Positions 27,586 through 46,049 of a stretch of 64,000 nucleotides of DNA are shown here, one piece after another (position 1 is the stretch's first letter; each line of letters starts with the position of its first letter). The translations under genes were made by a program, and so were the position numbers. The notes under the pieces were generated by a model. It saw nothing but the letters and a program-made list of their open reading frames with translations, did no database searches and was not told the DNA's origin. Source of the stretch: Rhizobium leguminosarum bv. trifolii WSM1325 (GTDB lineage: Bacteria > Pseudomonadota > Alphaproteobacteria > Rhizobiales > Rhizobiaceae); the NCBI GenBank assembly GCA_000023185.1, contig CP001622.1:4254501-4318500 (forward strand), read 5' to 3'.

Positions 27586-29145
27586 TCAGGGCCGGTGCGT
27601 CACCGGCCCTCTTTCCGTCAGCTCAGTATAGGCGAGAGTCTGATCGAGATGGCGTGCGCGGAGCGACAGCAGCTTCTCGGCATAGTCGAGCCGTATCGCC
27701 GCATAGGCCGGATCCGCCGCGACATTGTCGAGTTCCATCGGGTCGTCGGCAAGATTGAAGAGCAGCGGCGGCAAGGCGGTGAAATGCACATATTTGAACC
27801 GCGCGTCGCGGATCACCGCGAGATTGCATTCGTTGGACCGCAGCCGGAAATGCTGCTCGGCCTCACCATGCGCAATGTCGCGGAAATCGAATTCCCAAAA
27901 TGCCGCGTCCCGCCAGCCCTTTCCGCTGCCACCCCTGACGAACGGCATGAGCGACCGGCCATCGAGCCCGTTCTTCGCGTCGATGCCAAACCTTTGGCAA
28001 AGTGTCGGAAAAATATCCGCAGCGCTGGTGAATTTGTCGACGACCCCACCCGCAGCACTGCTTGCGGGATCGCGGATCACCAGAGGAATATGATAGCTGC
28101 CGTCGAAGAAACCGCCCTTGCCGAGCATCCAGTGATCGCCCGCCATCTCGGCGTGATCAGAGGTGAAGACAACAAGCGTATCGTCCCAGGCGCCCGCATC
28201 CTTGAGGGCCTGCCAGATGCGGCCGAGCTGCGCATCGACCTCTGATATCATGCCGTAATAGATCGCCCGGATCGCGGCGAAATCCTCGGCGTTCCAGCCG
28301 CTGAGCGGCCCCGTTGCGCCGTGGATAAAGCTGCCCTTGTCAGCGCGCGGCATGGCATAGGCGAGGTAGGGATGGCTGACCGGTTCCGCTTCGCGGTTTG
28401 TCGCGCGGGCAAAAGCCGGTCCCTCGCCTGGCTTGACCATCCGGTTGAACGGCTCCGGCACGGAGAACGGCGGATGCGGACGTAAGAAAGAGACATGCGC
28501 AAACCACGGCCTGTCCTGTTCGCCCATCCAGCGGATGAACTCGCCGGCCAGGAAAGCCGTTTGGGTCTCGTCGCGCGAATAGGCCGGCGCCGCATTTGAA
28601 ATTTCTCCGGCTCCAGCACCAACAGGAATATGGATATCGCGGCTGACGGCATCGGCATGGCCGCGAGACCTGAGCCAGGAGAGCCACTGTCTTTCGTGCT
28701 CGGGCAGAAGCTGGCGGGCCGTAAAGCCCGGCAGCACGCCTTCGTAGCTCGTTAGATGCGGATCGCCGCCATCCATCCCGCGCGGATCGGGCGCCGTATC
28801 GGTGTAGCCGAACAGCGTCGGGTCGTATCCCGCCCGCCGGGCGGCCAGGGCCAGATTGTCGAAGCGGGCATCGAGCGGCGAACCGTTGCGGCAGACCCGG
28901 TGGTTCATCTGATAGAGACCGGTATAGAGCGTGGCCCGCGCCGGTGAGCAGGGCGCCGCGCCGGCATAGTGCCGCCGGAACAGGGTGCCTTCCCGCGCCA
29001 GAGCATCGACGCCAGGTGTCTTTACACAGGCATGACCGACAGCCGACAGGCAATCGCCGCGCCACTGATCCGCCGTGATCAGCAGGACGTTCGGCCGGCG
29101 CGCTTTCTCGATGCTGGTTGGCTCAATGCTGGTTGGATTTTGCAT
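27586..29145 (-). CDS. Sulfatase-family hydrolase, phosphonate-monoester-hydrolase-like
   Basis: Alkaline-phosphatase-superfamily enzyme of 519 residues. The formylglycine motif APCSPARATLYTG (Cys near residue 65, C-x-P-x-R) needs oxidation by a formylglycine-generating enzyme. Metal ligands are in LITADQWRGD and VFTSDHAEMAGDHWMLGKGG. Long stretches (EFDFRDI, VIRDARFKYVHFTALPPLLF, VSFLRPHPPFS) match R. leguminosarum phosphonate monoester hydrolase, so phosphate/phosphonate diesters are likelier substrates than simple sulfate esters; choline-sulfatase-like activity remains possible. There is no signal peptide. ATG 29145 overlaps the galE end by 23 bases; an in-frame ATG at 29184 would extend deeper into galE. 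galE and this gene are probably co-transcribed. Confidence 0.85.
   Translation of the reverse strand: MQNPTSIEPTSIEKARRPNVLLITADQWRGDCLSAVGHACVKTPGVDALAREGTLFRRHYAGAAPCSPARATLYTGLYQMNHRVCRNGSPLDARFDNLALAARRAGYDPTLFGYTDTAPDPRGMDGGDPHLTSYEGVLPGFTARQLLPEHERQWLSWLRSRGHADAVSRDIHIPVGAGAGEISNAAPAYSRDETQTAFLAGEFIRWMGEQDRPWFAHVSFLRPHPPFSVPEPFNRMVKPGEGPAFARATNREAEPVSHPYLAYAMPRADKGSFIHGATGPLSGWNAEDFAAIRAIYYGMISEVDAQLGRIWQALKDAGAWDDTLVVFTSDHAEMAGDHWMLGKGGFFDGSYHIPLVIRDPASSAAGGVVDKFTSAADIFPTLCQRFGIDAKNGLDGRSLMPFVRGGSGKGWRDAAFWEFDFRDIAHGEAEQHFRLRSNECNLAVIRDARFKYVHFTALPPLLFNLADDPMELDNVAADPAYAAIRLDYAEKLLSLRARHLDQTLAYTELTERGPVTHRP
29107..29136. repeat. 15-base direct duplication across the galE/sulfatase junction
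   Basis: CTCGATGCTGGTTGG (29107-29121) is repeated with one change as CTCAATGCTGGTTGG (29122-29136). The duplication encodes a doubled PTSIE in the sulfatase N-terminus and includes the galE stop codon. Confidence 0.85.
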
Positions 29146-35609: not shown

Positions 35610-36266
35610 ATGCAAGGCGAATTGTTAAGGGTAGACCAATCACGGTCTCCCCAGGAAGACCAGCGGTCTTCCACGGAGCGGCTGAGGCCGGAACGGTTAA
35701 GGACCGATTGCCCTGTCTTGTTATCGGAAAGGCTCGTCATGCGCGCGCCCCACGAAGAAGACATCGACGCCCTTGCCCATCTCGCCAATAACGCCAAAGT
35801 CGCCACCATGGTATCGCGTATGCCGCACCCTTATACCGCCGATGATGCTGCCGACTTCGTGCGTCGCACGAAAAATGGCGAGATTGGCAAGTGCGTCTAT
35901 GCGATCACCAAAGCCGAAAACGGCGCCTTTATCGGCTGCTGCGGCGTGGAGCCGCAAACAGACGGCAAAACCGTCGAGATCGGTTACTGGCTGGGCGAGC
36001 CCTATTGGAACAAGGGTTATACCACCGAGGCCTGCCATGCCCTGGTCGATATGGTGTTCAGGACCCGTCAGGACGTCGATCAGATCGACGCCCGTTGCCG
36101 GGTCATGAACGTCGCCTCGCGCCGCGTCATCCAGAAGTGCGGCTTCCAGTTCCAGGGATCGGGGCTCGCCGCCTCGCTGGCGCTCGGCAGCAACGTGCCG
36201 GTCGAATGGTACAGGCTCGACCGCAAGACCTGGATGTCCCTCCGAAGCTGGGGGAACATCGCATGA
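35610..36266 (+). CDS. RimJ/RimL-type GNAT acetyltransferase (first of two)
   Basis: 218 residues with an N-terminal polar extension of about 38 residues before the domain start VLLSERLVMRAPHEEDIDAL. Domain features: YAITKAENGAFIGCCGVEP, the acetyl-CoA loop YWLGEPYWNKGYTTEACHAL and the C-terminal NVASRRVIQKCGFQFQGSGL. This architecture is that of RimJ/RimL-like enzymes that acetylate protein N-termini or small amines. ATG 35610 has a perfect AAGGAGG upstream. Its stop overlaps the next acetyltransferase start as ATGA, so the two are translationally coupled. Confidence 0.88.
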   Translation: MQGELLRVDQSRSPQEDQRSSTERLRPERLRTDCPVLLSERLVMRAPHEEDIDALAHLANNAKVATMVSRMPHPYTADDAADFVRRTKNGEIGKCVYAITKAENGAFIGCCGVEPQTDGKTVEIGYWLGEPYWNKGYTTEACHALVDMVFRTRQDVDQIDARCRVMNVASRRVIQKCGFQFQGSGLAASLALGSNVPVEWYRLDRKTWMSLRSWGNIA

Positions 36267-36850
36267 GCACGACTGCGCTGCAAAGGCCGGAGGTCAAGCC
36301 GATGATGCCCGGCCCCGCGCCGGTTATCTCGACCGCCCGGCTGACGCTCCGCCCCCACAGGCTGAGCGATGCGCCTGCGATCGCGGAATCGCTCTCGGAT
36401 TTCGCGGTCACGCGCATGTTGTCCCGCGTACCCGCGCCGTTCGACCGGCAGGATGCGCTGGACTGGCTGATCCCGGTCACCTCGGGCACCCTGCCCGACT
36501 GGCCGCTGGCGATCACCGATAAGGACGACGTCCATATCGGCAACGTCTCGATCGAGCTGCGCCACGGTCGCTGGCACCTCGGCTACTGGCTGAACCGCTA
36601 TTACTGGCGGCGCGGCTATATGAGTGAGGCGGTGGCGGCGATCATCGAGCGCTTCTCGCGCCGCATGCCGGAGACGCCGGTTCATTCCGGCGTTTTCGCC
36701 GACAACCCGGCTTCGCTGCGACTGCAGGAGAAGCTCGGTTTCCGCATGACGGGCTGCGGCGAAATCTATTGTTTCGCCCGCAATACCATGGTGTCGCACA
36801 TCGAGACCGTGCTGCAGCCTGGCATGCTGCAGCCGCGAAAGGTCGCCTGA
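36263..36850 (+). CDS. RimJ/RimL-type GNAT acetyltransferase (second of two)
   Basis: 195 residues starting at ATG 36263, which overlaps the upstream TGA. The domain begins VISTARLTLRPHRLSDAPAI; GYWLNRYYWRRGYMSEAVAA is the acetyl-CoA loop and FADNPASLRLQEKLGFRMTG the C-terminal motif. It is related to the preceding protein (same domain order, different N-terminus), so the pair probably arose by tandem duplication and divergence. Substrates unknown. A longer frame reading back to 35891 exists but only runs antisense to sense within the first acetyltransferase and should be ignored. Confidence 0.87.
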   Translation: MSTTALQRPEVKPMMPGPAPVISTARLTLRPHRLSDAPAIAESLSDFAVTRMLSRVPAPFDRQDALDWLIPVTSGTLPDWPLAITDKDDVHIGNVSIELRHGRWHLGYWLNRYYWRRGYMSEAVAAIIERFSRRMPETPVHSGVFADNPASLRLQEKLGFRMTGCGEIYCFARNTMVSHIETVLQPGMLQPRKVA

Positions 36851-41421: not shown

Positions 41422-42075
41422 GTGACGACCGAGCCTGACGTAGCGATCGAGAATGTGGACCGGCACTATCTCCGCATGCCGCACAGCGAGCGCGGCATGG
41501 TCGTCGGTCTGTTCGGCGGCTCGTTCAATCCGCCGCATCAGGGCCACGCGCTCGTCGCCGAAATCGCTCTCAAGCGGCTCGGCCTCGACCAGCTCTGGTG
41601 GATGGTCACCCCGGGCAATCCGCTAAAGAGCCGCAACCAGCTCGCACCACTCGCCGAGCGCCTCGCCGAAAGCGAACGTGTTGCCGCCGATCCCCGCATC
41701 AAGGTCACCGCCTTCGAACAGGCGTTCGGCACCAGCTACACCGCCAACACGCTTGCCCGCGTCAAGGCGCGTAATCCACATGTGCATTTCATCTGGATCA
41801 TGGGCGCAGACAGCCTGCAGACCTTTCACAAATGGCAGAAATGGCAGGAAATTGCCCGCACCTTCCCGATCGCGGTGATCGATCGGCCGGGCGCGACGCT
41901 GTCCTTCCTGTCCTCGAAAATGGCCAGGACCTTCGATTTCGCCCGTGTCGACGAGGATGATGCCCGTGTTCTCTGGAAGAAACGTGCACCGGCCTGGACC
42001 TTCATCCACGGACCACGCTCCGGCCTGAGCTCGACGGCAATCCGCAACGGCTCGTCGCACGGCGACGTCGAATAG
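41422..42075 (+). CDS. nadD: Nicotinate-nucleotide adenylyltransferase
   Basis: Makes deamido-NAD from nicotinate mononucleotide and ATP. About 217 residues; the nucleotidyltransferase motif VVGLFGGSFNPPHQGHALVA (with GGSFNPPHxGH) is complete, as is FIWIMGADSLQTFHKW, and the C-terminal ISSTAIR-type motif reads GLSSTAIRNGSS. GTG 41422 is one base after the proA stop, which fits coupling; ATG 41477 (MPHSERGM) is an alternative and would still keep the domain. In many alphaproteobacteria rsfS follows nadD directly; here the sRNA and molybdate genes intervene. Confidence 0.94.
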   Translation: MTTEPDVAIENVDRHYLRMPHSERGMVVGLFGGSFNPPHQGHALVAEIALKRLGLDQLWWMVTPGNPLKSRNQLAPLAERLAESERVAADPRIKVTAFEQAFGTSYTANTLARVKARNPHVHFIWIMGADSLQTFHKWQKWQEIARTFPIAVIDRPGATLSFLSSKMARTFDFARVDEDDARVLWKKRAPAWTFIHGPRSGLSSTAIRNGSSHGDVE

Positions 42076-42129
42076 AGCGCCGCCGCCCAGCAAGACGCAT
42101 GCGCCGGCCTGATTTCAGAAGATCCCGAA

Positions 42130-42256
42130 AACGAGAAAGCCCGACGGGGGAGGATCCGTCGGGCTTATAAACTCGATCGACAACTGGGAGGAGGAGTGTT
42201 GTCGACCCTATCGAACGGCTATGGGAGGAGGAGAAGCCGTTCGATGAGTATGTTGT
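42130..42256 (-). ncRNA. Alpha-r14-like trans-acting small RNA (three anti-SD hairpins)
   Basis: On the minus strand three stem-loops follow each other: arms 42235-42245/42210-42220 (ATCGAACGGCT / AGCCGTTCGAT), 42198-42205/42177-42184 (TCGACAAC / GTTGTCGA) and 42156-42165/42138-42147 (AGCCCGACGG / CCGTCGGGCT). The first two loops carry CTCCTCCTCCC and the third ATCCTCCC, the anti-Shine-Dalgarno motif. The last hairpin is followed by TTCTCGTTTTC and so doubles as terminator. This architecture is that of the alpha-r14 family (NfeR1/Sm14 in Sinorhizobium), which base-pairs with ribosome sites of transport mRNAs. The 5' end is my estimate. Confidence 0.8.
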
Positions 42257-42512
42257 ACCATATTTCGCAGGAAGATGAACATCGATTGGTGCATTGCAGC
42301 AATGCATTGTGCGCAAATCTCGAGGCGGATTTGGCTTCATCATTGCCGCTTTTATTAGCAAAAATTAAGGAAACATCCCCCGCTGCCCGGAGTCCTTGCG
42401 GTTGGCAAACTGACTCTGGGTATTTTCGCCATGCTGATCTGACTTTCGCCGGAAGCCATGCACCTCACGAATGCGTGAACATTGCGCCGCTGCGAACGCG
42501 AGCACCCGATAC
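42257..42512. other. Intergenic stretch between the sRNA and the modA operator region
   Basis: No gene is supported here. It should hold the minus-strand promoter of the small RNA (AT-rich sequence around 42253-42275 and AATTTTTGC-type sequence around 42355-42370 on the minus strand). Nothing else stands out. Confidence 0.3.
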
Positions 42513-42579
42513 GGTTATATTTTCCTGGATATATCCCTAGCCAAGATGCCTCGCCCGTTATATTCGTCGCAATATTTCG
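42513..42579 (+). promoter_or_regulatory. Candidate ModE-type operators upstream of modA
   Basis: Two sites look like ModE boxes. The first is GGTTATAT (42513-42520) facing ATATATCC (42529-42536). The second, CGTTATATT (42556-42564) plus CGTCGCAATATTTCG, closely echoes the E. coli modA operator core CGTTATATT-GTCGC. They lie 19-85 bases before the modA ATG, where a molybdate-responsive repressor would act. A short ModE-like protein is encoded at the end of the cluster. Confidence 0.5.
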
Positions 42580-42597
42580 AACCCTGGGGAATAAGTC

Positions 42598-43389
42598 ATG
42601 CAAAACCGCCGCCAATGGATGAAACTGGCAACCGCTGCGATCGCCGGCCTCTGGCTTGGCGCGACAGCGCTGCCGGCGCCTGCCGCCGCAGCCGAAAAGC
42701 TCACCGTCTTTGCGGCGGCGAGCCTCAAGAATGCGCTCGACGCCGCCAATGCCGCCTGGGCAAAGGAAAGCGGCAAGGAAGCCGTCGCCTCCTATGCGGC
42801 GAGCGGCGCGCTGGCCAAGCAGATCGAAAGTGCCGCACCCGCCGATATCTTCATCTCGGCCGACCTCGACTGGATGGACTATGTCGCCAAGAAGAACCTG
42901 ATCAAGGCCGATACCCGCTCCAACCTGCTCGGCAACAAGATTGTGCTCGTTGCCGAAAAGGACAAGGCAAAGCCGGTTGAGATCAAACAGGGCTTCGATC
43001 TTGCCGGACTCCTCGGTGACGGCAAGCTTGCCATGGGTGAGCCGAAATCGGTTCCGGCCGGCAAATACGGCATGGCCGCGCTCGAAAAGCTCGGCGTCTG
43101 GAAATCGGTCGAAACCAAGGTTGCCGGCGCTGAAAGCGTGCGCGCCGCCCTGGCCCTCGTCTCCCGCGGCGAAGCGCCCTACGGCATCGTCTACCAGACG
43201 GATGCCGCAGCCGATAAGGGTGTCGCCATCGTCGGCACCTTCCCCGCCGAGTCCCATCCCCCGATCATCTATCCGATTGCAATCCTCGCCGAGAGCAAGA
43301 ACTCGGATGCATCAGCCTATCTCGATTTTCTGAAATCGGACAAGGCGGCCGCCTTCTTCACGGCGCAGGGTTTCACCATCCTGAAATGA
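42598..43389 (+). CDS. modA: Molybdate ABC transporter substrate-binding protein
   Basis: Periplasmic molybdate-binding protein of 263 residues. A signal peptide with a twin-arginine-looking start (MQNRRQWMKLATAAIAGLWL) and cleavage after APAAAA precedes EKLTVFAAASLKNALDAANA, the family's first oxyanion-binding segment (A-A-S-L). YAASGALAKQIESAAPADIF ISADLDWMDY and the late YGIVYQTDAAADKGV complete the signature. GGGGAATAAGTC precedes the ATG. It supplies molybdate to ModB/ModC for cofactor synthesis (nitrogenase, nitrate reductase). Confidence 0.96.
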   Translation: MQNRRQWMKLATAAIAGLWLGATALPAPAAAAEKLTVFAAASLKNALDAANAAWAKESGKEAVASYAASGALAKQIESAAPADIFISADLDWMDYVAKKNLIKADTRSNLLGNKIVLVAEKDKAKPVEIKQGFDLAGLLGDGKLAMGEPKSVPAGKYGMAALEKLGVWKSVETKVAGAESVRAALALVSRGEAPYGIVYQTDAAADKGVAIVGTFPAESHPPIIYPIAILAESKNSDASAYLDFLKSDKAAAFFTAQGFTILK

Positions 43390-45431: not shown

Positions 45432-45809
45432 TCAGTTGCGCTCGCCCTGCTGCATGTTGCGCTTGGCCTCGAGCCAGGCGAGGTCCTCAGCAAGGCTGGT
45501 CCGCACCGTCTTTTCCATCCGACGGAAACGCTCGAGCAGTTCCTCGCCGAACGGCGTCAGCACCGCACCGCCGCCCTTCTGCCCGCCGCGCTGCGATTCC
45601 ACCACCTGTTCGTTAAACATCCGGTTCATCTCGCTGACCAGCAGCCATGCCCGCCGATAGGACATGTCCATCGCCCGCCCGGCCGCCGAGATCGATCCGG
45701 TCTGGCGGATATGCTCCAGCAGTTCCATCTTGCCATGGCCGAGACGATCCTCATCCGGGAAGCTGATTCGCAGAACGGGCACGAGTGTTTTTGCGGCTGA
45801 GTCGGTCAT
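45432..45809 (-). CDS. ModE-like winged-helix transcriptional regulator
   Basis: 125-residue protein corresponding to the N-terminal LysR-like winged helix of ModE: HGKMELLEHIRQTGSISAAG, RAMDMSYRRAWLLVSEMNRM and VESQRGGQKGGGAVLTPFGE. The C-terminal molybdate-binding TOBE domains of E. coli ModE are missing, as in several rhizobial homologues. It probably represses modABC when molybdenum is plentiful, but with no visible sensor domain how it responds is open. ATG 45809 is chosen; an ATG at 45854 would add 15 residues. It is convergent with modC and divergent from rsfS. Confidence 0.85.
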   Translation of the reverse strand: MTDSAAKTLVPVLRISFPDEDRLGHGKMELLEHIRQTGSISAAGRAMDMSYRRAWLLVSEMNRMFNEQVVESQRGGQKGGGAVLTPFGEELLERFRRMEKTVRTSLAEDLAWLEAKRNMQQGERN

Positions 45810-46049
45810 TGAATCTGGAGATCGTGGAATTTGCCGCACTTTACGCTGCGGCATGGAAACTGTACACCGCCCGCACGAGGCCGCCCCGAGCAGTCAAATA
45901 CTTCAATTCGAACGGCAGATCGGATTTTCGGCCGTTCTGTACCTTAGCATGTCTTGAAACATTAATGGTTTGATGCCTATCTTAACCATGATCCGGTCGC
46001 GATCGGATCTGTGTTGTGCATAGTTTGTCATTCCAGGAAAGGGAAAGCA

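Follow-up and report, generated by a model that had tools for sequence, protein, structure and literature searches.

Rhizobia hold several similar small RNAs (sRNAs) with anti-Shine–Dalgarno (anti-SD) loops, and the division of roles among the copies is the question addressed here for one copy that lies between nadD and modA in Rhizobium. The molybdate neighbourhood is a tempting clue to the function of this sRNA, a clue that is weakened by the results reported below. The alpha-r14 family, its anti-SD mechanism, the occurrence of multiple copies and the three- and four-hairpin forms are already published (PMC3927594, section 2.7), and the NtrBC loop with NfeR1 is described in PMC10746234. NfeR1 of Sinorhizobium meliloti (also Smr14C2 or SmelC397), the founder of alpha-r14, is an Hfq-independent transcript of 123 nt that is induced by nitrogen stress and in symbiosis and silences ntrB. 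The DNA analysed is a 64,000-nt stretch of Rhizobium leguminosarum bv. trifolii WSM1325 (CP001622.1, 4,254,501–4,318,500), hereafter the window, and positions are given in its own numbering.

The interval of interest (42130–42256) sits inside the 522-bp gap between nadD (41476–42075, plus strand; NF000845, 373.4 bits) and modA (42598–43389, plus strand; TIGR01256, 199.3 bits). The sRNA gene occupies 42132–42249 on the minus strand, convergent with nadD and divergent from modA, and its 5' end is predicted near 42245 from a −10-like element and the published geometry of NfeR1. According to protein family models, modA is followed by modB, a gene for a ModE-type protein (45432–45854, minus strand; 88.5 bits with TIGR00637, just below the cut-off of 98.5) and rsfS. 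Two imperfect TATAT-rich palindromes at 42514–42580, 5' of modA, resemble what we take to be ModE boxes.

The first-pass annotation had placed three hairpins of an RNA akin to alpha-r14 and NfeR1 on the minus strand of this interval, and a covariance-model search bore out the family link: RF02344 (ar14) matched 42132–42249 with 108.1 bits against a gathering cut-off of 58.8 (E 5e-19; positions 1–123 of the 123 in the model). The single other match in the window above an Rfam gathering score was a tRNA. The minus strand at 42110–42270 folded with −62.4 kcal/mol versus −38.0 ± 3.9 kcal/mol for 200 shuffles, none of which was as good (z −6.27), and the three hairpins with CU-rich loops were recovered as proposed. 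As defined by fold and alignment, hairpin 1 (42210–42245, minus strand) has 11 pairs and the loop UCUCCUCCUCCCAU, hairpin 2 (42175–42207, minus strand) has 10 pairs and the loop ACUCCUCCUCCCA, and hairpin 3, the putative terminator stem (42137–42166, minus strand), has 11 pairs and a shortened loop; among the stem lengths expected earlier (11, 8 and 10 bp), the first was right, but the other two needed correction. Loops 1 and 2 carry CUCCUCCUCCC and contain the full anti-SD 9-mer CCUCCUCCC, and the anti-SD sequence previously read in these two loops is indeed there (CTCCTCCTCCC); loop 3 is reduced to AUCCUCCC and keeps UCCUCCC alone. The tail 3' of hairpin 3 (42127–42136, minus strand) is T-rich, as had been said, but interrupted (TCTCGTTTTC). 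Three hairpins with variable stems, CU-rich anti-SD loops and a last hairpin that is a putative terminator are the layout of alpha-r14, here seen in both fold and covariation, and the multiple copies per genome that characterise the family in Rhizobiaceae were found as well. Membership of the AbcR family (ar15, RF02345) was rejected: ar14 alone matched at 42132–42249, and the RF02345 matches of the genome lie at three other places (C1:2981275, C1:2981499 and C3:36176). Open reading frames of 119 aa (minus strand) and 114 aa (plus strand) run across the interval, and a coding reading was rejected on account of single-base indels that aligned orthologues show within the interval.

Three anti-SD loops were found directly 3' of nadD, on the minus strand, in 79 of the 80 nearest nadD loci. 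These loci are the best 80 of at least 553 confirmed, labelled Rhizobium, Rhizobiales bacterium or Rhizobiaceae bacterium, with one Ciceribacter; because they were chosen as nearest relatives by NadD, the figure applies to Rhizobium and not to the family. The 9-mer was present in loops 1 and 2 of all 80 sequences (the window and 79 orthologues), and loop 3 held it in full in 27 of the 80, the window being outside those 27. In the alignment (80 rows, 78 distinct), 97.1% of cells were paired and 13 of 31 pairs had changed on both sides, and neither value was equalled in 500 shuffles; slid controls gave 16.7–47.4% paired cells. The count of further pair types, one of five covariation measures, was matched by 62 of the 500 shuffles. 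Hairpin 1 had 91.7% of cells paired and 7 of its 11 pairs altered on both sides, hairpin 2 had 100% and 4 of 10, and among the 10 pairs counted in hairpin 3, 8 were invariant and 2 altered on both sides. Conserved islands amid divergent DNA were seen 5' of the sRNA in the same 80 sequences.

One of these islands holds TACAAC (42252–42257, minus strand), which lies about 7 nt 5' of the predicted start and is the candidate −10 element. In S. meliloti, the NfeR1 promoter has TGCA-N6-GCAT as its LsrB site, spanning −72 to about −57, and TGC-N11-GCA as its NtrC site, which extends from −116 to about −100 (PMC10746234). Counterparts of both would stand at much the same distances from the start predicted here: an LsrB-type box TGCGCACAATGCAT (42302–42315, minus strand) at about −70, with one mismatch (TGCG), and an NtrC-type box TGC-N11-GCA (TGCTAATAAAAGCGGCA; 42344–42360, minus strand) at about −115. 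Their starts are 45 nt apart, and 44 nt in the published layout. The LsrB-type box overlaps a conserved palindromic core GCATTGCTGCAATGC (42291–42305, minus strand), which was found at a near-constant distance in 73 of 80 sequences and was absent from 7. The NtrC-type box was located 53–55 nt 5' of this core in 46 of the 80 and was missing by the strict pattern in 34. As a control, patterns of two triplets around N11 were counted at the offsets scanned 5' of a relaxed core: TGC-N11-GCA at −54 relative to that core was the commonest (48/80), and the next different pattern reached 24/80. Between the conserved ends of the box, 29 distinct A-rich spacers were present, with a mean pairwise identity of 58%.

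This promoter sets the nadD–modA copy apart within its genome. With a threshold of E 0.001, the 7.42 Mb of the six contigs gave nine ar14 matches, of which eight exceeded the cut-off; three strong matches and one weak lie on C1 and five on the other contigs. The core was seen in six of the nine and the LsrB-type pattern in five; both boxes at a spacing of 30–60 nt occurred in the window copy alone. Stem 1 also varies from copy to copy. More widely, ar14 matches were found in 46 of 61 genomes of relatives, among them this genome and every one of the 36 other members of the genus; at the level of the family the figure was 146 of 151 (137 above the cut-off), and none was found in 14 control genomes. 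Copies within the genus were compared, in part over a set of 20 stretches from which one (L224, without the loop triple) was dropped. All nine sequences of the L001-locus copy showed the LsrB-type pattern and lacked the NtrC-type box. In the copy at the L195 locus, none of seven sequences had an NtrC-type box or, close to hairpin 1, the LsrB-type pattern; in five of these seven the LsrB-type pattern lay at −159 to −161, where it could serve a more distant promoter. Among the eight nadD-locus copies analysed alongside, six carried both boxes, and L225 and L233 were without the NtrC-type box.

Predicted targets were ranked among 77 genes called from the window and three further stretches of the genome; the ranks are rough because the calls follow a home-made rule and some are surely false, and the pairing energies, computed from heuristic gene starts, take no account of mRNA structure. 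The start region of ntrB (CCGGGAGGCGGCAUG) was predicted to pair with the loops at −15.6 kcal/mol, third among the 77, and that of modA at −7.4 kcal/mol, 53rd among them. Random 50-mers from the window (n = 2000) had a mean of −6.9 kcal/mol; 1.65% reached the ntrB value and 40.5% the modA value. The ntrB gene lies in the order dusB–ntrB–ntrC, with dusB and ntrC above their model cut-offs and ntrB itself best matched by NR(II) at 192.8 bits, below the cut-off of 240. A match to ntrB was found in 33 of 37 genomes and loci were taken from 30, of which 23 were Rhizobium. In these 23, our strain included, the mean pairing energy was −13.0 kcal/mol, with 14 regions at −12 or better and 9 weaker; in the seven non-Rhizobium genomes, where starts are uncertain, values scattered from −15.8 to −3.2. 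The 78 orthologous regions at modA averaged −10.1 kcal/mol, and 8 of them reached −12 or better. The first-pass annotation had suggested a local or global role in transporter control. The local half of that proposal is not supported by modA pairing, and the values favour ntrB; that the sRNA acts more broadly on other mRNAs, and on ntrB in particular, is likely.

Promoter and target were further found to vary together. In the 13 Rhizobium genomes with the NtrC-type box, ntrB pairing was predicted at −12.3 to −16.4 kcal/mol (mean −14.9), and in the 10 without it at −9.7 to −12.3 (mean −10.6). Such a pattern would be expected of a feedback loop that keeps or loses both its arms at once. The association is nevertheless confounded by descent and may stem from one or two events, because the presence of the box and the strength of pairing each track the clades and the independent events are few. 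A natural set for comparison is provided by the genomes that lack the NtrC-type box. The nadD–modA copy is a further member of a known family, and this association in 23 genomes is the fresh point.

The neighbourhood could be read differently: the sRNA might repress modA, or its promoter and that of modABC might interfere, either of which would tune the supply of molybdate to nitrogenase. Adjacency lends this some weight. In 78 of the 79 sRNA-bearing loci modA also lies downstream in the stretch, and the 6 kb 3' of nadD contained neither the loop triple nor a modA match in 40 family genomes of other genera, which were hand-picked, mostly as closest by NadD, from 145 with a match; the gap between nadD and rsfS varies among them (7 without an rsfS match, 9 with more than 1 kb). 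The Ciceribacter locus (L088) likewise has neither sRNA nor mod genes, and nadD is followed by rsfS. At the nadD site, sRNA and mod operon thus seem to occur as a pair, in Rhizobium. One locus of another genus (L165) also has an ar14 copy just 5' of modA, on the same strand. Against local action, however, stand the modA pairing that two in five random 50-mers equal or better, the weaker pairing of modA orthologues compared with ntrB, and the other modA loci: among the best 27 of 102 other-genus matches (one, L177, ending at a contig edge), 26 were free of loop triples out to 1.5 kb, and when 20 of the 27 were scanned with Rfam, ar14 was recovered in L165 alone. We consider local action improbable, and the adjacency to modABC is an inherited Rhizobium neighbourhood that does not speak for local control of molybdate uptake. 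Along with these results, we observed about 0.8–3.3 kb of additional DNA between the sRNA and modA at L043, L045, L048 and L055, with the loop triple retained, and at L044 the loop triple was retained and modA was not seen in the stretch.

Somewhat less improbable, though still unlikely, is a silent or redundant paralogue with little or no function of its own, whose structure would persist through inheritance or through exchange between the nine copies of the genome. In S. meliloti only one of six copies is reliably detected by northern blot according to a review (PMC7143759), so the nadD–modA copy could be silent, and its shortened loop 3 would suit such a fate. The conserved promoter islands amid divergent flanks, the covarying stems and the retention of the copy in 79 of the 80 nearest loci argue the other way. 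A bidirectional terminator with additional stems 3' of nadD, devoid of sRNA function, is scarcely credible: hairpin 3 does sit 3' of nadD and, to judge from its position, could end nadD transcripts too, but two more conserved hairpins, invariant loops and a conserved promoter region would then be superfluous, and the RF02344 match is full-length.

We hold with good confidence that the nadD–modA sRNA is a trans-acting alpha-r14 RNA of about 112–118 nt, transcribed from its own leftward promoter, which represses the translation of multiple mRNAs in the manner of NfeR1. It is a known kind of regulator, because its control sites match those of the nitrogen-responsive NfeR1, and a vertically kept member of the family that most likely does the job of NfeR1 in Rhizobium. 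By analogy with NfeR1, LsrB would recruit RNA polymerase to the sRNA promoter and NtrC would block it under nitrogen surplus, and the sRNA would build up under nitrogen stress and in symbiosis. Its two full anti-SD loops and one shortened loop would then cover ribosome-binding sites rich in G, that of ntrB among them, and the translation of many mRNAs would be lowered, a mechanism that is known from S. meliloti NfeR1 and would be carried over to the Rhizobium RNA. With its NfeR1-type promoter and its tie to ntrB, the copy is a concrete candidate for a nitrogen-status sRNA in Rhizobium. More tentatively, the function of NfeR1 may have acquired a new address in this genus: an alpha-r14 gene with the complete NtrC/LsrB promoter unit would have entered the nadD–rsfS gap with the molybdate operon and become the NtrBC-controlled anti-SD RNA of Rhizobium, its NtrC box and its ntrB pairing being kept or lost together. 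We see this history as possible rather than probable.

The likeness to NfeR1 covers the three anti-SD-loop hairpins, the LsrB-type and NtrC-type boxes near their published distances (PMC10746234) and ntrB, a shown target of NfeR1 that is here a prediction and among the strongest predicted partners. The two RNAs differ in that the 9-mer occupies two loops and UCCUCCC the third, so that the three loops are not identical as in NfeR1, and in the mismatch of the LsrB-type box. A further, probable difference is the place: the nadD–modA copy lies away from the locus where other genera hold tandem copies, presumably the NfeR1 locus of S. meliloti. The layout is shared with the three-hairpin SmelA075 (PMC3927594, section 2.7); unlike four copies on other contigs, the nadD–modA sRNA lacks the fourth hairpin of SmelA099. 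AbcR1 and AbcR2 are likewise anti-SD sRNAs acting on transporter mRNAs, and AbcR1 is also activated by LsrB (PMC10746234). They nevertheless form a separate family, to which the three ar15 matches elsewhere in the genome belong. A further likeness is to RS0680a of Rhodobacter sphaeroides, presumably the RNA called cuckoo RNA. It has two hairpins rather than three, and their anti-SD loops are believed to pair with several ribosome sites (PMC3927594, section 2.7). Fig. S1 of PMC10746234 aligns NfeR1 promoters of Sinorhizobium and Rhizobium and may already include the nadD–modA copy. The main text of PMC2881028, an R. etli tiling-array study, does not mention nadD, modA or anything related to molybdenum, and no mention bearing on expression of the nadD–modA copy in Rhizobium was found in the accessible part of PMC3738593. 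No report of an sRNA next to modA in Rhizobium emerged from titles and abstract openings, and no literature joining Rhizobium leguminosarum, small RNA and ar14 was found.

Several observations were made on the remaining copies. The weak match on C1 (C1:4547727; L009 1501–1614; 36.8 bits, under the cut-off) carries CCCCTC in two loops, not CCTCCTCCC, and is perhaps a divergent or a different anti-SD RNA. Four copies (L004–L007; C6:2286, C3:28645, C5:119313 and C2:265945), on contigs that are probably plasmids, begin with one hairpin more, whose loop holds CCTCCTCCC, and resemble the four-hairpin SmelA099. The ar14 copy of L165 (2451–2620) is also four-hairpin, lies on the modA strand about 180 bp 5' of modA, and constitutes a second, separate ar14–mod neighbourhood. 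On C3, ar14 (28645–28767) and ar15 (36176–36286) are separated by 7.4 kb; proximity to AbcR was discarded as a guide to the NfeR1 orthologue, both ar15 matches on C1 being more than 1 Mb from every ar14.

The tandem locus, which is that of L195, was examined in nine stretches of other genera. Eight contained two or three tandem loop triples, and the ninth had a second ar14 match in the family-wide search. In one tandem member (L198, at 6945) the box starts are 44 nt apart, equal to the published distance. The tandem copies (L196–L203 and L209) differ in their upstream regions, and Rhizobium has one copy there. In our strain this copy is C1:1697038, not the nadD–modA copy. It has about 75 nt of GC-rich sequence just 5' of hairpin 1 and a promoter-like CATACTAT farther upstream, so it may give a longer transcript with a structured 5' leader. 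A similar GC-rich stretch before hairpin 1 was seen in L195 (6900–7250), L002, L215, L218, L222, L227, L231 and L232.
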